The notes under the pieces were generated by a model. The model saw only the letters and a list, made by a program, of their open reading frames with translations. It was not told the DNA's origin and ran no database searches. 64,000 nucleotides of DNA from positions 496,001 to 560,000 of the forward strand of contig SEHB01000001.1 in assembly GCA_004143945.1 (NCBI GenBank), written 5' to 3'. Each line of letters opens with the position of its first letter. Position 1 is the stretch's first letter. Origin of the DNA: Lysobacteraceae bacterium. Its GTDB lineage: Bacteria > Pseudomonadota > Gammaproteobacteria > Xanthomonadales > Rhodanobacteraceae. Positions 7,400 through 41,433 of this stretch are shown here, in pieces. The translations under genes were made by a program, and so were the position numbers.

Positions 7400-9079
7400 A
7401 TGAGCCATCCTCCACGTCCCTGGTTCGCCAGCTATCCGAAGGGCATCCCGACCGAGATCGATCCGGGACAGTACCGTTCGGTGACGGCGCTGCTGGAGGA
7501 AAGCTGCGACCGGTTCCGCCATCGGCCCGCGTTCGAGAACATGGGTCGCGACATGACCTATGGCGATCTCGATCGGCTCAGCGCGATCTTCGCGGCGTTC
7601 CTGCTCAACGACCTCAAGCTCGCCAAGGGCGAGCGCGTCGCGATCATGCTGCCGAACCTGCTGCAATACCCGGTCGCGATCATGGGCGTGCTGCGCGCGG
7701 GCCTCACGGTCGTCAACGTGAACCCGATGTACACGCCGCGCGAACTCCGCCACCAGCTCGTCGATTCGGGCGCGAGCACGATCCTGGTGCTCGACAATTT
7801 CGCGAAGACCGTGGCCGAAGTCCTCGCGGACACCGCCTGCCGCAACGTGATCTGCACCGGCATCGGCGACATGCTCGGTTTCCCGAAGTCGCTGATCACC
7901 AATTTCGTCGTGCGCCACGTCAAGAAGATGGTGCCGCCCTACTCGATCCCGCATGCGATCCGCTTCAACGAGGCGCTCGGTCGCGGCATGCGTTCGAAGG
8001 CCCCGAAGGTCGAAATCGGCCCGGACGACATCGCGTTCCTGCAGTACACCGGCGGCACCACCGGCGTGGCCAAGGGTGCGATGCTGACCCATCGCAACAT
8101 GGTCTCGAACATGCTGCAGGCGCATGCGTGGATCAGTTCCAACATGCGCGAAGGCGAGGAAGTGGTGATCACGGCGTTGCCGCTGTACCACATCTTCGCA
8201 CTGACCGCGAACTTCCTCGTGTTCGCGCGCGTCGGCGGTTACAACCACCTGATCACGAACCCGCGCGACATGCCTGCGTTCGTGAAGTCGATCAAGTCCA
8301 CCGGCTTCACCGCGCTGACCGGCGTCAACACGCTGTTCGCGGGACTGCTCAACACCCAGGGCTTCGACCAGGTCGATTTCTCGCGCCTGCGGCTGACCCT
8401 CGGCGGCGGGATGGCGGTGCAGCGTGCGGTCGCCGAACGCTGGAAGAAGGTGACCGGCTGCACGCTCGCCGAGGCCTACGGCCTGACCGAGACCTGCCCC
8501 GCCGTCTGCATCAATCCACTCGACATCGCCGAGTACAACGGCTCGATCGGGCTTCCGATTCCGTCCACCGACATCGCGATCCGCGACGACGACGGCAACG
8601 ACCTCGCGAACAACGCGATCGGCGAACTGTGCGTGCGCGGGCCGCAGGTCATGAAGGGCTACTGGAACCGACCCGAGGAAACCGCCCAGGTGCTTTCGGC
8701 CGACGGCTGGTTGCGCACGGGCGACATCGCGCGCATCGACGAACGCGGTTTCGTCTACATCGTCGACCGCAAGAAGGACATGATCCTCGTTTCAGGCTTC
8801 AACGTGTATCCGAACGAAGTCGAGGACGTCGTCGCCCAGATGCCCGGCGTGCTCGAGGTCGCGGCGGTCGGCGTGCCGGACGAGAAATCCGGCGAAGCGG
8901 TCAAGATCGTCGTGGTCAGGAAAGACCCCTCGCTGACGCAGGAACAGATCCGTGCGCACTGCAAGGAGAACCTGACGCCGTACAAGATGCCGCGCTACAT
9001 CGAGTTCCGGGAGTCGCTGCCCAAGACCAATGTCGGCAAGATCCTGCGCCGCGAATTGCGGGACGCGCCGGCGGGTTGA
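7400..9079 (+). CDS. fadD: long-chain fatty acid-CoA ligase FadD (RpfB in xanthomonads)
   Basis: Activates fatty acids to acyl-CoA with ATP through an acyl-adenylate at the inner membrane. The 559-residue product has the AMP-binding P-loop YTGGTTGVAKGAM, the YGLTET motif, the GWLRTGD motif and the FACS signature around VDRKKDMILVSGFNVYP; Lys in GKILRR lies near the C-terminus. ATG 7400 follows AAGGGGAAAA. Xanthomonas rpfB, upstream of rpfF, is the same family and affects DSF turnover by activating fatty acids, so a dual role is plausible. A PilZ gene separates it from rpfF here. Confidence 0.95.
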   Translation: MSHPPRPWFASYPKGIPTEIDPGQYRSVTALLEESCDRFRHRPAFENMGRDMTYGDLDRLSAIFAAFLLNDLKLAKGERVAIMLPNLLQYPVAIMGVLRAGLTVVNVNPMYTPRELRHQLVDSGASTILVLDNFAKTVAEVLADTACRNVICTGIGDMLGFPKSLITNFVVRHVKKMVPPYSIPHAIRFNEALGRGMRSKAPKVEIGPDDIAFLQYTGGTTGVAKGAMLTHRNMVSNMLQAHAWISSNMREGEEVVITALPLYHIFALTANFLVFARVGGYNHLITNPRDMPAFVKSIKSTGFTALTGVNTLFAGLLNTQGFDQVDFSRLRLTLGGGMAVQRAVAERWKKVTGCTLAEAYGLTETCPAVCINPLDIAEYNGSIGLPIPSTDIAIRDDDGNDLANNAIGELCVRGPQVMKGYWNRPEETAQVLSADGWLRTGDIARIDERGFVYIVDRKKDMILVSGFNVYPNEVEDVVAQMPGVLEVAAVGVPDEKSGEAVKIVVVRKDPSLTQEQIRAHCKENLTPYKMPRYIEFRESLPKTNVGKILRRELRDAPAG

Positions 9080-31254: not shown

Positions 31255-33000
31255 TCAGGGTGACTCGAAGCCGTCGCCGAAGATCCGGTCGGGAAGACGC
31301 TCGATCGCGCCCATGTCGTAGGGCCCGGCGCCGTCGGGCCTCGGGAGATCCTGCGGACGCGCGGTCCCGAGCAGGTCCGGGATCGTTCCGGGCCCGGGAT
31401 CGCAGGCATCCACCGCGGGCGAATCGGGGCCCGGGACGTGCACGCCGGCCGGATACGCGCCACTCGTGTCCCATTGGGGATCGGCGACCACGAGGTCGAC
31501 GACGCCCGGCTCGCCGGCCAGGCCGGTGTCGTCGTGCACGAGCACGCAGTCGAGGTTCAATGCGGTGCCCGCGGGTGCATCCAGGACCTCTCCGACCGTC
31601 CCGCCCTCGTCGTCGTGCAGCAGCGAATTCATGGCGCCGAAGCCACCCGGCGCATCGAAGCGCACGAGTGCCTCGTCGTCCGGTCCATTGCCCGCGATCG
31701 TGGTGTAGCGCAGGTCGAGGTAGGCACCGGACGAGCGGACCAGTTCGGGGGCGCCGTGGTTGCCCGCTACATGCGCATTCGTCAACGTCACCGTCGCGCC
31801 GGCCGTGCCCGCCTGCAGCACGCTGGCCCGGGTCGCCGAGTTGTCGGTGAACATCACGTCCGCGAGCAGCCCGTTCGCAGCGCCCGCGAGCGCGAAAGCG
31901 CCGCCCGCGCCCTCGGCATGGTTGCCCTCGAAACGCTGGCAGCGCGCGGGGTCGTCGCAGGCTTGCAGTGTATACACCTGCAGGTAGCCCGAATCCGCAT
32001 ACAGGCCGCCGCCGTCACCGCCGGCGTGGTTGTCGTCGAACTGCACGCCGCGCTGCATGTTCGACGCATCGCCGATCGAAGTGAAGTAGAGACCGCCTCC
32101 ATGGCCGCCGGCGGCATTGCCCGCGATCGGCGCCGGCGAGGCCGGCAGCGTGCCGTTCATTGCGAAATAGCCGCCCGACACCCAGGCGCCTCCGCCATCG
32201 CCGACGGCCGTATTCGCGCGCAGCCCGACGTGCGGGTCGGGCTCACCGGAACTGTTCGGCGGATACAGCGAGGTCCCGCAATCGATCTGCGCGACGCCGC
32301 CGCCATTGCCACCCGCCGTGTTTCCCTCAACGAGGCAGTAACGGTCGCAGTACATCGTTGCGGCAGAACAGTACAGGCCGCCGCCATCTCCGCTCGCGGC
32401 GTTGTCGACGATCGCGGCAGGCGACTGGTTGCCGACGAGGATCAGGTGCGGCACCCCCGACGCGGTCGCCTCGATCGCGATGCCCGCGCCGTTCTGCGCC
32501 ATGTTGTCGTGGATGCGGCCTTCCACCACGGACAGCACCGCATTGCCACGCACGCGCACGCCGCCGCCGTGGTTGCCGGCATGGTCGCCACCCGTGATGT
32601 CGAGGTTGCCGAGCACGACTTCGAAGCGATGGCCGTCGCCTGCGACCGAGCCTTCGATGTCGATCACCGGGGCCGCCGCGCCGCCGGCGCCGTCGAGCAC
32701 CGCCTCGCCCCCGGCCGACTCGAGCCGGCAACCCGGCATCTCCCCACGCAGTCCGATGCCGGTGCTGGCGAGCGGCGTCGGGATCGTGATCGCCTGCGCG
32801 GTCCAGGGCTGCGCATTCGAGATGAATACAGTCACGAATTCGCTGTCCGGCGATGCCGCCCAGGCGTCGATCGCGGCCTGGACCGTGTGGTAGTCACAGT
32901 CCGGATCCGACGCGGGACCGACGAACACGAGCTGCGCCGCCGCCGGCGCAGACAACACCAGCGCGCAGGCCGCCAACAGGAACCGGTTCGGGCAAGGCAT
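31255..33000 (-). CDS. secreted right-handed beta-helix protein with C-terminal IFGDGFE motif
   Basis: A 581-residue exported protein: signal peptide cleaved near AAAQ (residue 23), then a long Gly/Asn-rich repetitive region with many NTAxGxGGG and DNxAGGDGGGLY-type turns (residues 130-430), typical of parallel beta-helix proteins of the polymorphic-outer-membrane or pectate-lyase-like type. The C-terminus has a cluster often seen in such proteins (DSPAVDACDPG, PRPDGAGPYDMGAIE) and ends DRIFGDGFESP. That last motif recurs in two other secreted proteins of this window. ATG 33000 has AGGA eight bases upstream. The function is probably at the cell surface or outside the cell, substrate unknown. 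Confidence 0.88.
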   Translation of the reverse strand: MPCPNRFLLAACALVLSAPAAAQLVFVGPASDPDCDYHTVQAAIDAWAASPDSEFVTVFISNAQPWTAQAITIPTPLASTGIGLRGEMPGCRLESAGGEAVLDGAGGAAAPVIDIEGSVAGDGHRFEVVLGNLDITGGDHAGNHGGGVRVRGNAVLSVVEGRIHDNMAQNGAGIAIEATASGVPHLILVGNQSPAAIVDNAASGDGGGLYCSAATMYCDRYCLVEGNTAGGNGGGVAQIDCGTSLYPPNSSGEPDPHVGLRANTAVGDGGGAWVSGGYFAMNGTLPASPAPIAGNAAGGHGGGLYFTSIGDASNMQRGVQFDDNHAGGDGGGLYADSGYLQVYTLQACDDPARCQRFEGNHAEGAGGAFALAGAANGLLADVMFTDNSATRASVLQAGTAGATVTLTNAHVAGNHGAPELVRSSGAYLDLRYTTIAGNGPDDEALVRFDAPGGFGAMNSLLHDDEGGTVGEVLDAPAGTALNLDCVLVHDDTGLAGEPGVVDLVVADPQWDTSGAYPAGVHVPGPDSPAVDACDPGPGTIPDLLGTARPQDLPRPDGAGPYDMGAIERLPDRIFGDGFESP

Positions 33001-33084
33001 GGCATTCGTCCTGTGTCAGGTTGGTGTACGCAATGCCGGACGCGGAAGCGACAGCGGGCGCGACGCGTTGCCGGCAAGGTTCCT

Positions 33085-33849
33085 TCAGGGCATCGGAGTC
33101 GGCCCCGCAGCGCCGTGCCTGCGCGTCAGGCGCGGCAGGGGCAGCAACGCGGGCACGCGCATGCGATACGCGAGGTAGGCCGAACCGAGCTTGCGCACGA
33201 GATCGTGTTCCTCGAGGCGAATGCCGACGAAGATGTAGCCGGTGGTCAGCAGCGCGAACAGCAGCCGCCCATGTGTCATCAACGGCGCGGACCAGAACGC
33301 GATCAGGAAACCGAGCATGATCGGGTGGCGCACGAAGCGGTAGAACAGCACTTCCTTGAACACCGACTCCTGCGCGGGCGTCTCGCGCAGCCGGCGCCAT
33401 GCCTGGGTCAGCCCGAACAGTTCGAAATGGCTGATCATGAAGGTCGAGAGCACGACCACGGCCCAGCCGATCGCGAAACACGCGAGCAACACGCTGCCGG
33501 CCGCCGTGCCGCGCACGTCCCACACCACGCCCGGCAGCGGCTGCCACGCTGCGTAGACGAGGAACAGGCAGAGGCTCGAGAGCATCACGTAGGTGCTGCG
33601 CTCGATCGCATCGGGCACGAAGCGCGTCCACCAGCGCTTGAACGCGGGGCGCGCCATCACGCTGTGCTGGACCGCGAACAGTCCGAGTACTGCCGCGTTC
33701 ACGAGAAGCGCAAGCCAGCCGCCGGGCCCTGGCGGCTGGTTGATCGATTTGGGCACGGCGAGGTCGCCGACGAAGCCGATCGCGTACAGGATGGATGCGA
33801 GGAACAGCAGGTAGCTCAACGTCGAGTAGAGGATCAGGAACAGGCGCAT
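33085..33849 (-). CDS. mddA: methanethiol S-methyltransferase MddA-like membrane protein
   Basis: A 254-residue polytopic membrane protein of the NnrU/isoprenylcysteine carboxyl methyltransferase superfamily with about five helices. It has the MddA-type segments FLASILYAIGFVGDLAVPKS, LFAVQHSVMARPAFKRWW, IERSTYVMLSSL, LSTFMISHFELFGL and a C-terminal SAM-binding region RFVRHPIMLGF and GIRLEEHDLVRKLG. MddA methylates methanethiol to dimethylsulfide. ATG 33849 has GGAG upstream; an earlier ATG at 33921 adds a charged leader. Substrate assignment comes only from family resemblance. Confidence 0.78.
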   Translation of the reverse strand: MRLFLILYSTLSYLLFLASILYAIGFVGDLAVPKSINQPPGPGGWLALLVNAAVLGLFAVQHSVMARPAFKRWWTRFVPDAIERSTYVMLSSLCLFLVYAAWQPLPGVVWDVRGTAAGSVLLACFAIGWAVVVLSTFMISHFELFGLTQAWRRLRETPAQESVFKEVLFYRFVRHPIMLGFLIAFWSAPLMTHGRLLFALLTTGYIFVGIRLEEHDLVRKLGSAYLAYRMRVPALLPLPRLTRRHGAAGPTPMP

Positions 33850-34023
33850 GTGGGGCGACTCCAGGGGTCTCCCGGCGAGAAACGCCTTGGCGCGCCGGTT
33901 TGCGACATGAATCGCGGCCATCGGCGTGATCGATGCACCGCTTCGTCCTGTCGATCCTGCCTGCCACCGAACGTCGTTTCGATACCGTGCCCGCTGGGGC
34001 ACAACCGCCACGAGGAGGACACC

Positions 34024-34383
34024 ATGGCCTATGTCGACGGCTTCGTGATTGCCGTACCCACCGCGAACCGCGATGCGTTCATCGAACACGCGCGCCGCTT
34101 CGACGCGCTGTTCATCGAATACGGCGCGACCCGCGTGGTCGAGTGTTGGGGCGAGGACGTTCCCGAAGGCAAGGTCACCGACTTCCGCCGTGCCGTGAAG
34201 GCGGAAGCCGCGGAATCGGTCGTGTTCTCGTGGGTCGAATGGCCGGACAGGGCCACGCGTGACGCGGGCATGGAGAAGTTCATGAAGGATCCCCGGATGG
34301 AAGATGCCAACGACATGCCGTTCGACGGCAAGCGCATGATCTTCGGTGGCTTCGGCGCGGTGGTCGAACTCGGGGCCGGTTGA
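34024..34383 (+). CDS. DUF1428 family protein (YbaA-like)
   Basis: A 119-residue cytoplasmic protein with the DUF1428 pattern: YVDGFVIAVPTANRDAF at the start, VVECWGEDVPEGKVTDF in the middle and MPFDGKRMIFGGFGAVVE near the end. The fold is a dimeric alpha/beta barrel like antibiotic-monooxygenase (ABM) proteins; the E. coli member YbaA has no known function. ATG 34024 follows a strong GAGGAGG site. It sits 174 bp from the divergent mddA-like gene and is followed by a GFA protein on the same strand. Confidence 0.93.
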   Translation: MAYVDGFVIAVPTANRDAFIEHARRFDALFIEYGATRVVECWGEDVPEGKVTDFRRAVKAEAAESVVFSWVEWPDRATRDAGMEKFMKDPRMEDANDMPFDGKRMIFGGFGAVVELGAG

Positions 34384-34556
34384 GCGCGGGGCGGCCGTCG
34401 ACGGACGCGGAGACTGCGCAACATGCGATGCACGTCAAGACCTGCGAGTCCACGTGCACCGCGTGCGCGCGTATCCGTGACAATGAGACCCGAGCGGCGA
34501 AGCTGGGTCGGGATCCTTCGGGCCAGCCGAAACGCGCAGATGGGCAAGGAGGAACG

Positions 34557-35006
34557 ATGATCGAGACGCGCCATGGGAGTTGTCACTGCGGGGCCGTGCG
34601 ATTCCGCTGCGAGATCGACCTCGCGCCACCCGGCCGGCGCTCGGCGCAGGCGCGTCCGGGCGAGTGGTATGCGTCGACGCTGCGCTGCAACTGCTCGTTC
34701 TGCCGCAAGACGCGCATGTGGAAATGCCACGTCCCGGCCGAAGCTTTCGAACTGCTTTCCGGCGCCGACGACCTCAGCCACTACCGCTTCGCCGCCGGCT
34801 TGATCGATCACACGTTCTGCCGGCATTGCGGGGTCTACGCCTTCGTCAGCGCAAGCGAACCGGTGATGGGCGGTGACTTCGTCTGCGTCAACGTCGCCTG
34901 CCTCGACGACGTCGACGAATCGGAACTCGCGGCGGCGCCGATCTGTTACGAGGACGGCGCGAACGACGATTGGGCGCATGCGCCGCGCGAGACGGGTTAC
35001 CTCTAG
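34557..35006 (+). CDS. GFA/CENP-V family zinc protein
   Basis: A 149-residue member of the glutathione-dependent formaldehyde-activating (GFA)/CENP-V family. Zinc-binding cysteines occur as SCHCGAVRF at the N-terminus, CNCSFCRKTRMWKC and TFCRHCGVYAF. The ATG at 34557 is preceded by AAGGAGGAA. Members bind glutathione adducts or have unknown roles; no formaldehyde pathway gene is adjacent, so the true substrate is open. The gene is on the same strand as the DUF1428 gene 174 bp upstream. Confidence 0.9.
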   Translation: MIETRHGSCHCGAVRFRCEIDLAPPGRRSAQARPGEWYASTLRCNCSFCRKTRMWKCHVPAEAFELLSGADDLSHYRFAAGLIDHTFCRHCGVYAFVSASEPVMGGDFVCVNVACLDDVDESELAAAPICYEDGANDDWAHAPRETGYL

Positions 35007-35155
35007 TTCGACGTTGGGCGACGAGGAGCGTCGACATCGGTCGTGCCGGGCTCGCGAGCCCCATGCCGCGGGCACCGGCAACGCCCGATGCGTGCTCCCG
35101 GACTGCCTCGGCCTTCATTGCATATACTTCCACTCTCGACCGAACGGGAGTCGTG

Positions 35156-36319
35156 ATGGACCACCTCGTTCATTCCCGCCTGCGCGAACAGGCAGCGGAC
35201 CCTGCCGGCACGCGCCGTTGCACCCGGTGTGCCAGCGCGCTCATGGCGCTCCTGGCTGCAGCAGCGCCGGCCATGGCGGCTGATCACGCGATCATCGATC
35301 TCGGCACGTTGCCCGGCACGCCAGCCGGCACGTGGCCGGACGCGCGTGGGACCAATGCGGACGGAAGCGTCATCGTGGGTGTCGTCGGCGAGCGCGCATT
35401 CGTTTGGGATGGCGCCATGCATGTGCTGGATGGCGCCGCGAGCGCGAACGCAACCAGCGCCGACGGCACGGTGATCGTCGGGAAACTGGCATCGCCAGCG
35501 CACGCGTTCCGGTGGTCCGCGAGTACGGGACTGCAGGATCTCGGCACGCTCCCTGGCGGCACGGCGAGCGAGGCTGCCGACGTCAGCGACGACGGTCACG
35601 TCGTCGTCGGCGTCGCCACGACGCCCGACGGAACGCTCGCCTGGCTCTGGAGCGCCGAAGCCGGCATGCGCAGCCTCGGCACGTTGGCAGCGCAGGCCTC
35701 CAGCGCGGCGACCGCGGTCAGCGGTGACGGTCGCGTCGTCACCGGTTATTCCGCGAACCACGCGTTCCGATGGACCGAGCCATCGGGCATGGTGGACATT
35801 TCGCCTGATATCCCCGCCGAGGGCGCCGCGGGTGCACGTGCCATCAGTTCGGACGGGTCCACCATCGTCGGTACGTATGTGCGCCACTTTGGCGTGGGCA
35901 CGACGCCCTACCAGTTCCGCTGGACCGTGTCCGGCGGATTCGAGGATCTCTTCGCGCCTGGCGTGGGAAGCTCGAGCCCCGGCCATGCGCGTGCGACGAA
36001 TCACGACGGCTCGCGCATCCATGGCGCGTTGTTCGGCACCGTCCTCGAGGCGAGTACCTGGTCGCTCGCTACGGGGACGATTCCGCTGGCTGCCTGGCTC
36101 GAGTCGGAGGGGCTCGACCTGTCCGGATGGAACCTCGTCGAGACGACGGCAGTCAGCGACGATGGCGAGGTCCTGGCGGGCAGCGCCTACCGCGAGGTCG
36201 GCGACGAGCAGGTACCCACCCTCTGGCGCCTATCGGATCTCGAGTCCGCCGATCGGGTGTTTGCCAACGGTTTCGACCCCATCTCGACTGCCCACAGGTG
36301 GAACGCGCGAGGGCACTGA
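35156..36319 (+). CDS. secreted HAF-repeat protein with C-terminal VFANGFD motif
   Basis: A 387-residue exported protein. A signal peptide ends near AMAA (about residue 42), preceded by an unusually long N-region. The body is made of HAF-type repeats, recognisable by LGTLPGGTASEAADVSDDG, VVVGVATTPDG, AFRW and ATAVSGDGRVVTGYS units roughly every 40 residues, which fold as a beta-propeller-like structure. It ends ADRVFANGFDPISTAHRWNA, sharing the (V/I)FxxGF(D/E) signature with two other secreted proteins in this window. ATG 35156 follows a GGGAG. Function unknown, presumably extracytoplasmic. Confidence 0.88.
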   Translation: MDHLVHSRLREQAADPAGTRRCTRCASALMALLAAAAPAMAADHAIIDLGTLPGTPAGTWPDARGTNADGSVIVGVVGERAFVWDGAMHVLDGAASANATSADGTVIVGKLASPAHAFRWSASTGLQDLGTLPGGTASEAADVSDDGHVVVGVATTPDGTLAWLWSAEAGMRSLGTLAAQASSAATAVSGDGRVVTGYSANHAFRWTEPSGMVDISPDIPAEGAAGARAISSDGSTIVGTYVRHFGVGTTPYQFRWTVSGGFEDLFAPGVGSSSPGHARATNHDGSRIHGALFGTVLEASTWSLATGTIPLAAWLESEGLDLSGWNLVETTAVSDDGEVLAGSAYREVGDEQVPTLWRLSDLESADRVFANGFDPISTAHRWNARGH

Positions 36320-36370
36320 AGGTCCTCGCCGAACACCCGGTCGCGTGCGCGCCTCGCATGTGGCGGCCGA

Positions 36371-37036
36371 TCAGTTGTTGCCGGCAATCTCGCGCAATGC
36401 GCGCTCGAACACCTCGACCGGCTGTCCGCCCGAGATCAGGTGCTGGCGCTCGAAGATGATCGCAGGCACGCCGCGGATACCGCTGCGCTGGAACATTGCT
36501 TCGTCAGCGCGGACTTCGGACGCGAACTCGTCCGAGCCGAGGATTTCGCGCGCGCGAGCGGGATCAAGCCCCGCCTCCGCGACGATGCCGACCAGCGTGG
36601 CCACATCCGAGACGTCGCGACCTTCGGTGAAGTACGCGCCGAGCAGCGCATGCTTCAGCGCCGCCTGGCGACCGCCGTCGAGAGCAGCCCAGTGCAGCAG
36701 CCGGTGCGCGTCGAAGGTATTGTGGATGCGGCGGCGCCCGCTCCCGAAAACCAAGCCGAGCTCGGCGCCGCGCTGGCGGATGCGTTCCTGGTTCTCGTCC
36801 AGTTGTGCTGCCGACAGGCCGTACTTCGCGGTCAGGTGCTCGGCGATGTCCTCGCCTTCGGGACCGAGATTCGGATTGAGTTCGAACGGACGGAAGTGGA
36901 TCTCGGCATCGAGCTCGCCGCGCGTCCGCGCGAGCGCCTGCTCGAGCGACGCGAGTCCGATCGCGCACCACGGACAGACCACGTCCGATACGTAGTCGAT
37001 CCGGAGCACGACAGGCGCGGATGGTTCGTTCGCCAT
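36371..37036 (-). CDS. DsbA family oxidoreductase, FrnE-like
   Basis: A 221-residue thioredoxin-fold protein of the FrnE/DsbA-polyketide type without a signal peptide, so cytoplasmic. The active site is CPWC (residues 21-24) in SDVVCPWCAIG, with the helical insert between residues 60 and 130 and the cis-Pro strand RGVPAIIFERQHLISGGQP near the end. Such proteins act as disulfide oxidoreductases or isomerases, implicated in oxidative stress. ATG 37036 has a GAGG upstream. It is convergent with the HAF-repeat gene and divergent from the SDR gene. Confidence 0.94.
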   Translation of the reverse strand: MANEPSAPVVLRIDYVSDVVCPWCAIGLASLEQALARTRGELDAEIHFRPFELNPNLGPEGEDIAEHLTAKYGLSAAQLDENQERIRQRGAELGLVFGSGRRRIHNTFDAHRLLHWAALDGGRQAALKHALLGAYFTEGRDVSDVATLVGIVAEAGLDPARAREILGSDEFASEVRADEAMFQRSGIRGVPAIIFERQHLISGGQPVEVFERALREIAGNN

Positions 37037-37159
37037 GGTACGGCCTCGTTCCTCGCGAAAGGCGCCAGTCTACCTGTTGGATCCGTCGCGGCACCTGGTG
37101 TGCATTCGCACCCGGAACCGCGCAATCGACGCGCTTGCACGGCGATCCGGCCTCGTGGG

Positions 37160-37235
37160 GCCCTTCGACTCCGCCTTCGGCTGCGCCCAGGGCGAACGGG
37201 AGAAGATCGGCGGCTGCGCCCAGGGTGAACGGCAA
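37160..37235. repeat. REP-like element with two 21-base direct copies
   Basis: CCCTTCGACTCCGCC is followed by two near-identical copies of GGCTGCGCCCAGGG(C/T)GAACGG starting at 37179 and 37212 (33-bp period). The outer part (CCCTTCG ... AGGGCGAACGG) resembles the widespread dispersed repeat that forms a hairpin with CCGTTCGCCCT arms. It lies in the intergenic space upstream of the SDR gene. Confidence 0.6.
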
Positions 37236-37276
37236 TCTCCCGATGCATTCGCGCGGGGCGCCGCGCACGGGAGATA

Positions 37277-38908
37277 ATGCGCGATCCACTGCATTCCGGA
37301 ACGACCTTGAACACCCCAGCCATGACGTCCGACGCACGCACCGAGCGCGGTGGGGACCACGATGTCGCCGCACTAGCGGGCCATCTCGATGCCGCGCTCG
37401 CCTTGCTCGAGGCGGTCGTCGCCGATCGCGGCGTTCTCGCCAGCCTGCCCGTCGAAGGGCGCGACCGCCTGCTCAGGGCCGTCGCGCTCGTCCACCACCC
37501 CGAGCCGCGCGCGCGTCGCCGCCAGGCCAAGTTGCAGGCGCGCGAGCAGGCGCGGGAGAAGGCGCGCATGACCGAAGCCCTGCTCGACCAGACCGGCATC
37601 CGCACGCTGCGCCGCAAGCCGGTGTTCAGCACGCCGAACGTGTTTCCGCCCTGCCCGCCGACGCAACTCGATGCGCAGGTGCACGCACCCCAGGCACCCC
37701 CGCGCATCGAATCGCCGGAGCAGCTGCATTGCTACGTCTGCAAGCAGAAGTACACCAGCGTGCACCACTTCTACGACCAGTTGTGCCCGGCCTGCGCGGA
37801 GCTCAACTTCTTCAAGCGCACCGAGACCGCGGACCTGCGCGGGCGTGTCGCATTGCTGACCGGCGGGCGCGTCAAGATCGGCTACCAGGCCGGCCTCAAG
37901 CTGCTGCGCGCGGGGGCATCGCTGATCGTGACGACGCGCTTCCCGCGCGATTCCGCCGCCCGCTACGCGGCCGAGCCGGATTTCGACGAGTGGGGACACC
38001 GCCTCGAGGTGTTCGGGCTCGACCTGCGCCACACGCCGAGCGTCGAAGCGTTCTGCGCGCAGCTGCTCGCGACGCGCGAGCGCCTGGACTTCATCATCAA
38101 CAACGCGTGCCAGACGGTGCGCCGCCCGCCCGCGTTCTATGCGCACATGATGGCGGCCGAGACCGCTTCGCTGCGCGACATGCCCGCGGACGTGCGCAAG
38201 CTCATCGGCCACTACGAAGGCCTGCGTGGCGCGGACCTCGTCGGCGACGCGGGCGCGCAAGGCCTGTCTGCGCACCGCAATGCACCCATCGACGCGGCCG
38301 GGCTCGTGCGCGCGGCCGAGCTCTCGCAAGTGCCGCTGTTGCCGGACGAACTGCTCGGCCAGGCGCATCTGTTCCCCGAAGGCCGGCTCGATCAGGACCT
38401 GCAGCAGGTCGACCTGCGCGGTCGCAATTCATGGCGGCTGCAGATGGATGAAGTGCCGGCGGTGGAACTGCTCGAAACGCAGCTCGTCAATGCGGTCGCG
38501 CCGTTCATCATCAACGCACGGCTCAAGGCGCTGATGCTGCGCACGCCCGAGCGCGACAAGCACGTCGTCAACGTGTCCGCGGTCGAGGGCCAGTTCTACC
38601 GCAATTTCAAGACCACGAAGCATCCGCACACGAACATGGCCAAGGCCGCGCTCAACATGATGACGCGCACGTCGGCGGCCGACTATCACGGCGACGGCAT
38701 CCACATGAACAGCGTGGACACCGGCTGGGTGACCGACGAGGACCCAGCCGAGATCGCCGCGCGCAAGATCGTCGAGGAGCGCTTCCATCCGCCACTCGAC
38801 ATCGTCGATGGCGCGGCGCGCATTGTCGATCCGATCATCCACGGCTTCAACACCGGCGAGCACGTGTGGGGGCGGTTCCTCAAGGACTACGCACCGACCG
38901 ACTGGTGA
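37277..38908 (+). CDS. SDR family oxidoreductase with N-terminal zinc-ribbon-like domain
   Basis: A 543-residue protein, about twice the usual SDR length. Residues 1-150 are charged and helical; a four-cysteine motif follows (Cys152, Cys155, Cys170, Cys173 in HCYVCKQKY and LCPACAEL), then a Rossmann domain from about residue 190 (VALLTGGRVKIGYQAG), the NNAC motif at DFIINNACQT and a YRNFKTTKHPHTNMAKAAL segment where the SDR catalytic Tyr/Lys would be expected. The classical GxxxGxG and YxxxK are altered, so catalysis is uncertain. The start could also be ATG 37322; the first ATG has a GGGAG close by. It converges on a pseudouridine synthase with 3 bp between the two genes. Confidence 0.85.
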   Translation: MRDPLHSGTTLNTPAMTSDARTERGGDHDVAALAGHLDAALALLEAVVADRGVLASLPVEGRDRLLRAVALVHHPEPRARRRQAKLQAREQAREKARMTEALLDQTGIRTLRRKPVFSTPNVFPPCPPTQLDAQVHAPQAPPRIESPEQLHCYVCKQKYTSVHHFYDQLCPACAELNFFKRTETADLRGRVALLTGGRVKIGYQAGLKLLRAGASLIVTTRFPRDSAARYAAEPDFDEWGHRLEVFGLDLRHTPSVEAFCAQLLATRERLDFIINNACQTVRRPPAFYAHMMAAETASLRDMPADVRKLIGHYEGLRGADLVGDAGAQGLSAHRNAPIDAAGLVRAAELSQVPLLPDELLGQAHLFPEGRLDQDLQQVDLRGRNSWRLQMDEVPAVELLETQLVNAVAPFIINARLKALMLRTPERDKHVVNVSAVEGQFYRNFKTTKHPHTNMAKAALNMMTRTSAADYHGDGIHMNSVDTGWVTDEDPAEIAARKIVEERFHPPLDIVDGAARIVDPIIHGFNTGEHVWGRFLKDYAPTDW

Positions 38909-38911
38909 CAC

Positions 38912-39793
38912 TCACGGCGGATCCAGTCGCCGCACGCTTTCGAAACATCGCGTGGCGCCGCTCAGCGGATCGACGAACGCGAGTCGGCGCGCCAGCAGTT
39001 GCAGAGGTCGTGCGTAGTCGTCCTCGTGCACGCGCTCGAGCTCCGGATACAGACGGTCGTTCGCGATCGGCGCGCCGAGTGCGGCCATGTGCACGCGCAA
39101 CTGGTGCTTGCGTCCGGTGACGGGCTCGAGCGAATAGCGCCATGCGCGCGCGGCGCGCTCGACGACGTCGACGCGGGTCTCGCTGTCGGCGGGACCGTCG
39201 ACCTCGCGCATGCGGAAGAATGGGTCGCCCGCGCGCAACCGCGAGGCATGCACGAGCGGAAATACGCGGCCCGGCAGTGCTGGCGCGATCGCCTCGTAGG
39301 CCTTCGCGACGCGTCGCAGCCGGAACAGTGACTGATAGGCATTGCGCGTTTCGCGGTTGGCGGAGAACAACACGAGACCCGCGGTATCGCGATCGATGCG
39401 ATGCAGCGGCACCAGATCGGGGTTGCCGAGCCGCCAGGTCAGGCGTGCGAGCAGCGTCTCTCGCACGAACCGCCCTGCGGGCGTCACCGGCAGGAAGTGC
39501 GGCTTGTCCGCGACGACCAGATGCTCGTCGACATGCAGCACGGATTCCTCGAACGGAATCGCGGGCTCGTCCTCGACCTCGCGGAAGTAGCGGATCTCGC
39601 TTCCGGCACGATGCGGGGCGTCGACTCCGATGGGGGCACCGGACGCATCCATGACGCGTCCGCGCGCGAAGCGGTCCCGCCAGGCCTCGCGGCTGATCGC
39701 CGGAAAGCGCTCGCACAGGCAATCGAGCAGCGTGGACCACGCACCCGGCGGAACCTGCAGGCGGCTCGCGCCGATGTCGTCGGAAGCCGTCAC
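38912..39793 (-). CDS. RluA family pseudouridine synthase
   Basis: Isomerises uridine to pseudouridine in rRNA or tRNA. The 293-residue product has the RluA family catalytic motif with its aspartate in LVPLHRIDRDTAGLVLF, the EDEPAIPFEE-LVVADKPHFLPVTP region before it and the C-terminal VTGRKHQLRVHMAALG. The target site is not deducible. The start is GTG 39793 (VTASDDIGASRL); no ATG lies in the 140 bp upstream of it, and the ribosome site is poor, so the start is provisional. It is divergent from a secreted protein gene at 39956. Confidence 0.88.
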   Translation of the reverse strand: MTASDDIGASRLQVPPGAWSTLLDCLCERFPAISREAWRDRFARGRVMDASGAPIGVDAPHRAGSEIRYFREVEDEPAIPFEESVLHVDEHLVVADKPHFLPVTPAGRFVRETLLARLTWRLGNPDLVPLHRIDRDTAGLVLFSANRETRNAYQSLFRLRRVAKAYEAIAPALPGRVFPLVHASRLRAGDPFFRMREVDGPADSETRVDVVERAARAWRYSLEPVTGRKHQLRVHMAALGAPIANDRLYPELERVHEDDYARPLQLLARRLAFVDPLSGATRCFESVRRLDPP

Positions 39794-39955
39794 CGGCTCG
39801 GTCCGCGTCGTGGTCCCGGACCTCCGCCTCGCGGCACCGCGTGGATCCCGACCACTCGGATTGGCCCCTGCGCGGACTTGCTTGCGTTGATGCCGGGAGA
39901 GGAGCCGATTCCACAGGGCGCCCTCGTACGCAACAGGCATGGCTGGAGGCGATCG

Positions 39956-40609
39956 ATGGACAACGCAGCATCCGCGCGCACGCGGCGTTCGCATGACCTG
40001 CTCGGCGCGTGCGGCGCCCTGCCCCGGATCCTCGCGGGCACCGCGTTCGTGATTCTCGGCTCGGCTCTGCCATTGGCCCATGCGGCTGACCGGTTCGGGG
40101 TTCGATCGGACACGGTCGTGCCGCGCGTCGCCGGACACGCCGACCAGACGGCCACGCCGGCGTCGTTTCCGCGCTCGCGCTTCGGCGTGCGCACAGGTGA
40201 CGGCCGCGGCGCGGGCGACTCGATCTTCGCAGACGGATTCGACCTGTCCATCTCGTACGACTTCACGTTTCCCTCCGACGTGCCACTGGGCGACCAATCG
40301 GTCGAACTCGGCAGTGTTTCGGTCCCGGCCGGATCGTATGCGGTGTTCGTGCGACTGCAAGCGCGGACTGGCGACGATCCGAACCCGGGCAACAACTATC
40401 GCCTCGACTGCGAGCTGTCGCCGGCCATCGACTACGACGTCTACCGCGTCGGCGTCGAACCACTGGTCGAGCGCTACCTGACCTACCAGGGCGCGGTGAC
40501 GCTCGATGCGGCCGGGACCATCGGCTTCTGGTGCCGCAGCGCGAACCAGCATGAAGCAACCGCGCTGGACGGCAAGCTCACGGTCCTGTCCGTCGGCGGG
40601 CTCGATTGA
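39956..40609 (+). CDS. exported protein of unknown function, paralog A, with internal IFADGFD motif
   Basis: A 217-residue protein from ATG 39956 (GGAGG seven bases upstream). A hydrophobic signal (residues 25-44, ending LAHA) indicates export. Residues 45-95 are disordered and end in GDSIFADGFD, the motif seen at the C-terminus of two other secreted proteins here. Residues 96-217 form a beta-rich domain (VPAGSYAVFVRLQARTG, RLDCELSP, VYRVGVEP, GKLTVLSVGGLD) that is about 60% identical by eye to the C-terminal domain of the next gene. No known family is recognised. Confidence 0.8.
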   Translation: MDNAASARTRRSHDLLGACGALPRILAGTAFVILGSALPLAHAADRFGVRSDTVVPRVAGHADQTATPASFPRSRFGVRTGDGRGAGDSIFADGFDLSISYDFTFPSDVPLGDQSVELGSVSVPAGSYAVFVRLQARTGDDPNPGNNYRLDCELSPAIDYDVYRVGVEPLVERYLTYQGAVTLDAAGTIGFWCRSANQHEATALDGKLTVLSVGGLD

Positions 40610-40674
40610 ACCGCGCGTCCGATTCGAACCCACCGTCGCGCGTGACTGCGCGCGTCCATCCTACGGAGTCCACG

Positions 40675-41433
40675 ATGATCAAGTCCATGCAAGCCCTGTG
40701 GCTGGCCGGATGCCTCGCCAGCTTCGCGTCCGTTTCCGCGGCGGCTGCGGACGCGTCGGTCGGCGCGGCTGCCTATCGCGGCCAGTTGCTCGACAACGGC
40801 GTTCCTGCAACGGGCACCTACGACCTCGAATTCGCGCTGTACGCCGAGCCGAAAGGTGGCTTGCCGATCGATGTCGTCCGCTTCGACCGCAGCGAGCTTT
40901 CCGAAGGCCACGTCGAAGCGCCGCTGGACTTCATCGGAGCTTCGACCGATGGACGTGGCCAATGGATCGAGGTGCGCATGCGCGAGTCCGGCTCGGGAGT
41001 GCCATTCGCGACGATCACGCCTCGCGAGTCGACCCGCGCGGCGATGAAGGCGGCGGCGGGCGTCGCGGGCCTCGCCCGCGCGTACGACATCGCGTTCACG
41101 CCCGACACGCTGATCGGCAACTCGACGGTCCTGCTCGGCAACATCAACGTACCGGCCGGATCCTATGTCGCGTTCGTGCGCCTGCAGGTGCGCACGGGCC
41201 AGGATCCTCCGGGCAACTCGTTCCGGCTCGATTGCAGCCTGACGCCCGGATTCGACAGCGGCGTCTATCGCGTGGGCACGGAAACCGGCGTCGAACGCTA
41301 TGTCACGTTCCAGGGCGCCGCGACGCTCGACAACGCGGGTGCAATCCAGTTCTCCTGCCGCGACGGCAACGGGCATACGCAGACGGCGCTGAGCGGCAAG
41401 CTCACGGTGATCGCCGTGGATGCGATCGACTGA
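40675..41433 (+). CDS. exported protein of unknown function, paralog B
   Basis: A 252-residue exported protein with signal peptide (residues 1-25, SAAAA). Its N-terminal half (YRGQLLDNGVPATGTYDLEF ... GQWIEVRMRESGSG ... ATITPRE) resembles a module of bacterial surface proteins in which a short beta domain describes an optional parameter set (pattern LxDxGxPAxGTYDxxF ... LTPR); the C-terminal half (VPAGSYVAFVRLQVRTG, RLDCSLTP, VYRVGTET, GKLTVIAVDAID) is paralogous to the end of the gene 65 bp upstream. ATG 40675 has GGAG at good spacing. Function unknown; tandem duplication is clear. Confidence 0.82.
   Translation: MIKSMQALWLAGCLASFASVSAAAADASVGAAAYRGQLLDNGVPATGTYDLEFALYAEPKGGLPIDVVRFDRSELSEGHVEAPLDFIGASTDGRGQWIEVRMRESGSGVPFATITPRESTRAAMKAAAGVAGLARAYDIAFTPDTLIGNSTVLLGNINVPAGSYVAFVRLQVRTGQDPPGNSFRLDCSLTPGFDSGVYRVGTETGVERYVTFQGAATLDNAGAIQFSCRDGNGHTQTALSGKLTVIAVDAID

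Follow-up and report, generated by a model that had tools for sequence, protein, structure and literature searches.

The stretch of DNA analysed here, referred to as the window, comprises 64,000 nucleotides (positions 496,001 to 560,000 of contig SEHB01000001.1, assembly GCA_004143945.1, from a bacterium labelled Lysobacteraceae) and contains three genes for secreted proteins that share a short peptide motif, hereafter the tag, whose relation to a type II secretion system (T2SS) is the subject of this analysis. The first gene (31255..33000, reverse strand) encodes a beta-helix protein of 581 residues, in which the tag IFGDGFE (31264..31284, reverse strand) spans residues 573-579 and is followed by Ser-Pro and the stop codon; a weak match to choice-of-anchor Q, below the cut-off, lies just before it. 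The second (35156..36319, forward strand) encodes an HAF-repeat protein of 387 residues (TIGR02913, 1.3e-21), whose tag VFANGFD (36257..36277, forward strand) is separated from the stop codon by 13 residues. The third, Paralog A (39956..40609, forward strand), is a protein of 217 residues for which no NCBIfam or Pfam match was obtained up to an E-value of 1 (211 of the 217 residues scanned), and its tag IFADGFD (40223..40243, forward strand) occupies residues 90-96, at the boundary between an N-terminal linker and the C-terminal part. The starts of the HAF protein and of Paralog A are predicted ones, the former taken from its signal peptide. An earlier note on this DNA had pointed out the three motifs in these genes, and their coordinates were confirmed; a degenerate pattern matched three times in the window, against a mean of 0.00 in 100 dinucleotide-preserving shuffles. 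Paralog A stands in tandem with a second secreted protein, Paralog B (39956-41433 for the pair), with which it shares a similar C-terminal part; the tag lies ahead of this part in Paralog A, and Paralog B has no tag and a different N-terminal half.

The motif was then searched for in the whole assembly to which the window belongs (3.67 Mb, 29 contigs). The pattern [IVM]Fx[DN]GF[DE] occurred 97 times (39 + 58), compared with once for the reversed pattern, so that the tag extends far beyond the three cases of the earlier note. Eighty-two of these matches fell within 40 residues of a stop codon, where 7.9 would be expected if matches were uniform along stop-to-stop frames; 76 lay within 15 residues and 70 within 6, and 24 ended exactly at the stop with no tail at all. 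The tail after the motif was at most 26 residues long in 81 of the 97, and neither a transmembrane (TM) helix nor a basic cluster was found in these tails, as the earlier note had remarked for its own examples. An Asp precedes the motif at position -2 in 73 of the 82 C-terminal copies, giving the consensus D-x-[IV]-F-A-[DN]-G-F-[DE], mostly followed by 0-6 residues and the stop; positions upstream of this Asp carry little information, and flanking residues are little conserved. The codons of the tag vary synonymously (GGC 54, GGT 16, GGG 14, GGA 13; GAC/GAT; GAC/GAG/GAT/GAA), so that this is a protein motif, with selection acting on the peptide, and a DNA repeat was rejected on this ground. 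Together with the 97-to-1 count and the scarcity of conservation beyond the Asp, the same variation refutes the view that the tag is a chance pattern, or a repeat at the DNA level seen in translation, and leaves it practically no probability. At the level of sequence, the tag is established.

The proteins that carry the tag appear for the most part to be exported and are otherwise diverse. Export signals were recognised by a crude, simple signal-peptide rule in 66 of the 79 C-terminally tagged open reading frames (ORFs) of at least 130 codons, against 13 of 64 controls, which were conserved untagged ORFs that included antisense frames and membrane proteins. Two of the proteins missed by the rule (C17:605130 and C19:176135) have Tat-type starts when read by eye; two tagged proteins match DUF1501, and these are presumably the same two. 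We scanned up to 430 residues at the C-terminal end of the 82 tagged proteins, and among the families listed (the best 25 of 56 in NCBIfam and 25 of 55 in Pfam) none was common to them. Choice-of-anchor Q (9), beta-helix (8), DUF11 (5) and sugar dehydrogenase-like (4) families led those listed, followed by delta-60 and HAF (3 each), S8 peptidases (2) and M14, M28 and M64 (1 each), and there were also matches to endonuclease I, GH44 and the aminopeptidase LapA. The motif is thus common to unrelated exported proteins. Because some of the matched families bear NCBIfam names that refer to MYXO-CTERM or LPXTG anchoring in other bacteria, the tag appears to stand at the site where those bacteria place an anchor or sorting signal. 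Enrichment throughout the genome, placement at the C-terminus and occurrence on exported proteins were the tests that the earlier note had proposed for a sorting-type tag, and all three came out in its favour.

Fifteen of the 97 copies, including that of Paralog A, are internal. Two lie closely behind a signal peptide (C10:48876 and C25:17034, the latter in an ORF that we take to be the start of a DUF1800 protein), and eleven lie inside longer ORFs; in three of these (L059, L060 and L061) the tag is directly followed by a related C-terminal segment of 193 residues, as though a domain had come to extend what used to be the C-terminus. One internal copy, in what we take to be a sugar transferase, is probably a chance match. 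Given 14 internal matches besides that of Paralog A, this probable chance match among them, the linker position suggested for Paralog A in the earlier note is plausible. Positions behind a signal peptide or between domains are unexpected for a cleavage-and-anchor signal and possible for a binding peptide. This bears on the analogy drawn in the earlier note with PEP-CTERM and GlyGly-CTERM, to which MYXO-CTERM may be added, in which a sortase-like or C-terminal protease would cut at the tag. Such cutting would account for the C-terminal bias and for the many proteins per genome, and a short exosortase-like protein is present in 22 of the 49 genomes of a panel that we examined. It is at odds with the missing TM helix and basic tail and with the copies after signal peptides and between domains; moreover, exosortase (PF09721), the only sortase type tested, is absent from 7 of the 22 genomes in the panel that have at least 10 tags, that of the window included, and was rejected as a general partner. 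We consider processing of this kind very unlikely, so that the sorting-type tag of the earlier interpretation stands and its sortase analogy does not. The short exosortase-like protein (PF09721, second half of the profile; for example L238-L241) is patchy in the order, and occurs in all seven panel genomes of family f8.

To describe the distribution of the tag, we surveyed 150 genomes of the order to which the window's genome belongs, and a separate set of 299 spread over the phylum, few of them from the order. Tag counts within the order were strongly split, many genomes having 20-97 and others 0-2. No genome outside the order had more than 4 matches in the phylum set, a number close to what the reversed control gives. 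Among genomes with 1-4 matches, 10 of the 31 matches read lay no further than 15 residues from the stop in ORFs longer than 100 residues, the rest resembling background, and no dedicated operon was seen in the stretches taken from these genomes. A scan of named genomes with one tag ending gave 51 stretches, two of them with matches in frames of 25 and 54 residues that are probably due to chance; carriers included Dokdonella (placed by NCBI in Rhodanobacteraceae, Lysobacterales), Tahibacter, Pseudofulvimonas, Wenzhouxiangella and Marinicella. Contigs labelled Sedimenticola (L136, L146, L158 and L173) hold one family of tagged protein, and one labelled Candidatus Fermentibacteria (L133) has two terminal tags; this could be due to transfer, to bins with wrong labels or to the system having a wider range.

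The tag itself varies in family f10, where the Gly is mostly missing in the genomes of one genus: G037 has 1 strict match and 56 relaxed ones, and in G058 14 of 18 relaxed matches read DR, with five of five translated copies reading [IV]FxDRFE near the stop. Because these genomes replace the Gly, Asn/Asp-Gly chemistry is disfavoured as the function of the tag. Some tags of f10 genomes have SG...AW between them and the stop (L132, 1501-1570, IFTDGFESGDTSAWTTTVP; L326, about 1501, IFSDRFESGNAW), an ending that, as we see it, resembles the initial strand of jelly rolls of the LamG or choice-of-anchor kind; such a strand is a possible origin of the tag.

The earlier note had proposed looking for a co-occurring sortase gene. 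Exosortase, the sortase type tested, fits less well than the partner described below, and clustering of the ORFs beside tags (in the window's genome, at the named loci and in low-tag genomes) gave no convincing shared partner that was itself untagged; what co-occurs with the tag instead is a second T2SS, which we call T2SS-b. In the 49-genome panel, a second gspD over the cut-off was found mainly in tag-rich genomes, with G061 and G074 as tag-poor exceptions. Two types of gspD sequence could be told apart: an Xps-like type a, present in nearly all genomes, and a type b. The 21 GspD-b rows form one side of a branch with Shimodaira-Hasegawa-like approximate likelihood-ratio (SH-aLRT) support of 94 in a quick tree that carried two long-branch warnings, and they group by family, as if vertically inherited. 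Loci of type b have the order gspC-gspD-gspE-gspF; they were chosen by their gspD, which is hence in 20 of 20, and BLAST clustering recovered gspC in 20, gspE in 19 and gspF in 12 of the 20. The conserved genes beside this locus look like trxA, rho, rhlB and ftsEX. A second T2SS-b locus contains gspG to gspK in eight of eight genomes, with frames at the places of gspL-gspN in seven, and a second strong GspG (183-191 bits) was found in 8/8 genomes with T2SS-b and in 0/8 without. In the window's genome, GspD, E, F, G, H, I, J, K and L of T2SS-b exceed the NCBIfam cut-off; GspM and GspN gave no family match and were assigned from gene order only. Divergently beside gspC-b of this genome lies a tagged ORF of 574 residues (L282:12300-14024, forward strand) that has no NCBIfam or Pfam match. 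As for the two exceptions, G061 has a third kind of T2SS secretin (L259, G061:C12:1609500-1613400) that shares 36% identity with type b, falls outside the b group and may be Xcs-like, we assume; G074 has three Xps-type (type a) gspD genes (L255, L256 and L257). Neither has a surplus of tags.

We built a GspC-b profile from 20 sequences and ran it on the 150 genomes. Matches scored 4.8e-40 or better and cross-matches 4.2e-11 or worse, with G061 alone between them (2.9e-26); since its GspD is outside the b clade, G061, which has 1 relaxed match to the tag, was counted as lacking T2SS-b. With the tag count of each genome taken as the larger of the strict and relaxed counts, at least 10 tags were found in 70 of the 82 genomes with GspC-b, compared with 5 of the 68 without it (Fisher 1.9e-23, with no correction for relatedness), and the relaxed motif gave an area under the curve of 0.949. 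The same contrast appears within families. In f1, the family of the window, the four genomes with GspC-b have 25, 39, 55 and 97 tags and all 20 without it have 0-4; in f2, the single genome with GspC-b has 46 tags and all 23 without it have 0-2. As a stand-in for a species tree we used a GspD-a tree that covered 35 of the 49 genomes in the panel and omitted four gspD rows that were extra or odd; on it the tag follows T2SS-b in 3.7 of four independent pairs on average and never changes in the opposite direction. Judged from sequence data, the tie between the tag and T2SS-b is strong but correlative.

These observations make it reasonably probable, in our judgement, that the tag is a short, portable, linear address for a dedicated second T2SS, and that T2SS-b would be the machine exporting the tagged proteins. 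Tagged proteins would cross the inner membrane via Sec or Tat and then reach their folded state in the periplasm. Once folded they would expose D-x-[IV]-F-x-[DN]-x-F-[DE], usually at the C-terminus and sometimes behind the signal peptide or between domains, and a component of T2SS-b would select the exposed tag, the likeliest reader being the PDZ-like domain of GspC-b, perhaps together with the periplasmic domains of GspD-b. That the tag occurs at either end of Sec and apparently also Tat substrates with many folds fits a read-out after folding in the periplasm, the compartment in which a T2SS operates. Suspicion as to the reader falls first on GspC-b, since peptide tails are ligands of PDZ domains and hairpins can be; binding of the tag by its PDZ domain is offered here as speculation. 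GspC-b has a T2SSC homology region (PF11356, 78.6 bits against a cut-off of 27) and scores just under the cut-off of TIGR01713 (98.4 against 101.6). A profile search of solved structures with GspC-b returned OutC/PulC, the PulC PDZ domain and EpsC. The structural model of GspC-b from the window's genome has a mean predicted local distance difference test score (pLDDT) of 77 and a predicted template-modelling score (pTM) of 0.36, with two folded domains mostly at 83-97 and low-confidence stretches between them; its best fold matches are the PDZ domains of EpsC (E 4.2e-07) and PulC (E 4.8e-07). In this model the C-terminal domain resembles a PDZ-like domain of the OutC/EpsC type. A PDZ fold has been described in this region for OutC and EpsC, and XpsC is not so described in the part of that paper available to us (PMC11981180). 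A 2025 T2SS paper, in the portion accessible, finds that the PDZ domain of Vibrio EpsC is needed for secretion of VesB and not for that of most substrates, and notes that a linear universal signal is lacking (PMC12369372). The fuller version of this proposal, in which a T2SS reads one linear, portable address on many clients, the GspC-b PDZ domain binds a short beta-hairpin or a free tail, and tag and reader co-evolve (DGFE in most families, DRFE in one), is more tentative, and we would put it at somewhat below even.

Several points weigh against an address read by T2SS-b. Tails of 0-26 residues fit poorly with the canonical binding of a free C-terminus by PDZ domains, and on GspC-b the Pfam models PDZ_6 (22.9 bits) and PDZ_2 (22.8 bits) remain below the cut-off of 27. 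T2SS signals described so far are flexible structural loops, according to the sections available of one source (PMC7949064). Extra T2SS copies as such bring no tags, as G061 and G074 indicate. The comparison on the GspD-a tree comprises four pairs only, for which a sign test gives p 0.125, the best value that four pairs allow, and that tree needs 6 changes for the tag label against 4 for T2SS-b, so that much of the correlation could be due to common descent. Twelve of the 82 genomes with GspC-b have fewer than 10 tags, the lowest being G064 (1), G089 (3) and G082 (4); G082 and G064 keep GspD-b, and none of the four matches read in G082 is convincing as a tag. Conversely, five genomes have at least 10 tags without GspC-b: G118 (63), G048 (22), G063 (16), G059 (14) and G122 (13). 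G118 has, on an open frame of 140 residues, a fragment of GspD that shares 49% identity with the b-type query, which suggests that T2SS-b is probably present and the assembly broken; G048 (90% complete) and G059 (77% complete) gave only weaker secretin matches. So did G063 and G122, both of family f8, and of the five loci read in each of them, two end no more than 14 residues before the stop in an ORF longer than 100 residues, one of each pair belonging to a shared family in which the tail itself is conserved. Real-looking terminal tags without GspC-b thus occur in f8 in G042 (two), G056 (one), G097 (one), and G063 and G122 (at least one each), and the pairing of tag and T2SS-b is imperfect in this family; these tags may be remnants or may be served by the other T2SS. 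In G042 the two tagged genes run towards each other, and a few dozen bases separate their tags (L214, about 8175-8246, G042:C13).

Some of these points favour an explanation in which the tag and T2SS-b have no direct link: both would be ancestral in the order, and a lineage abandoning its surface secretome would lose the two of them. The grouping of GspD-b by family as if by vertical descent, the small number of independent state changes (about four) and the few tags kept by some f8 genomes without GspC-b all agree with it. However, conservation across unrelated folds implies that the tag must serve something, the tag never changes opposite to T2SS-b, and exosortase, which is also patchy, correlates with the tag far less than T2SS-b does on the 49-genome panel (phi 0.42 against 0.88). 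We regard the absence of any direct link as improbable. A second alternative, to which we give a slightly better chance while still thinking it unlikely, is that the tag acts after export, as a surface-retention peptide bound by an outer-membrane or matrix receptor, with T2SS-b serving only for delivery. In its favour, the tag stands at the anchor site of relatives named for choice-of-anchor, MYXO-CTERM or LPXTG. The medium of Wenzhouxiangella AB-CW3 showed no proteolytic activity, and the authors assume anchoring to the outer membrane, as far as the text available goes (PMC7691419); the tag is carried by loci of another Wenzhouxiangella strain. Retention at the surface would require a third co-distributed part besides T2SS-b, and no receptor gene turned up, none having been systematically sought; the N-terminal and interdomain copies suit either role.

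The proposed address differs from systems already described. Type IX secretion likewise uses a C-terminal signal without a TM helix to direct exported proteins across the outer membrane, but there, in Bacteroidota, the signal consists of a folded domain some 70-100 residues long, whereas the tag has about 9-12 residues and is found in Gammaproteobacteria; no type IX model was among the best 25 of the 56 NCBIfam families of the tagged proteins, and genes for type IX secretion were not searched for. GlyGly-CTERM with rhombosortase and PEP-CTERM with exosortase resemble the tag in being short C-terminal motifs on many unrelated exported proteins that were paired with a partner by phylogenetic profiling. 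Of the three parts of a CTERM signal, however, the tag has the motif near the C-terminus of exported proteins and lacks the TM helix and the basic cluster, and it can be internal or N-terminal. VesB, a GlyGly-CTERM protein, is a T2SS substrate in the available part of the 2025 T2SS paper (PMC12369372). Unlike rhombosortase, for which Haft and Varghese, in the accessible text, were unable to show such a link, the tag goes with a subclass of T2SS (PMC3237569). The T2SS signals of Pel3/PelI loops and the VesB Ig-fold share with our proposal the involvement of GspC and GspD in recognition, and of the GspC PDZ domain for some substrates, in the passages available (PMC7949064, PMC12369372); those signals are structural and substrate-specific, whereas the tag is one linear motif on dozens of unrelated proteins. 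No paper was recognised as describing the tag in a literature search outside of which lay most subscription journals and all bioRxiv preprints.

How a T2SS chooses its clients is a long-standing question. From the sequence comparisons made here, a tag that tends to come and go with T2SS-b suggests that a machine believed to use no simple address label may have one. If this is true, client choice could be tested by moving about ten residues from one protein to another, prediction of secretomes from sequence would become easier for much of a bacterial order, and the tag would provide a portable handle for export.

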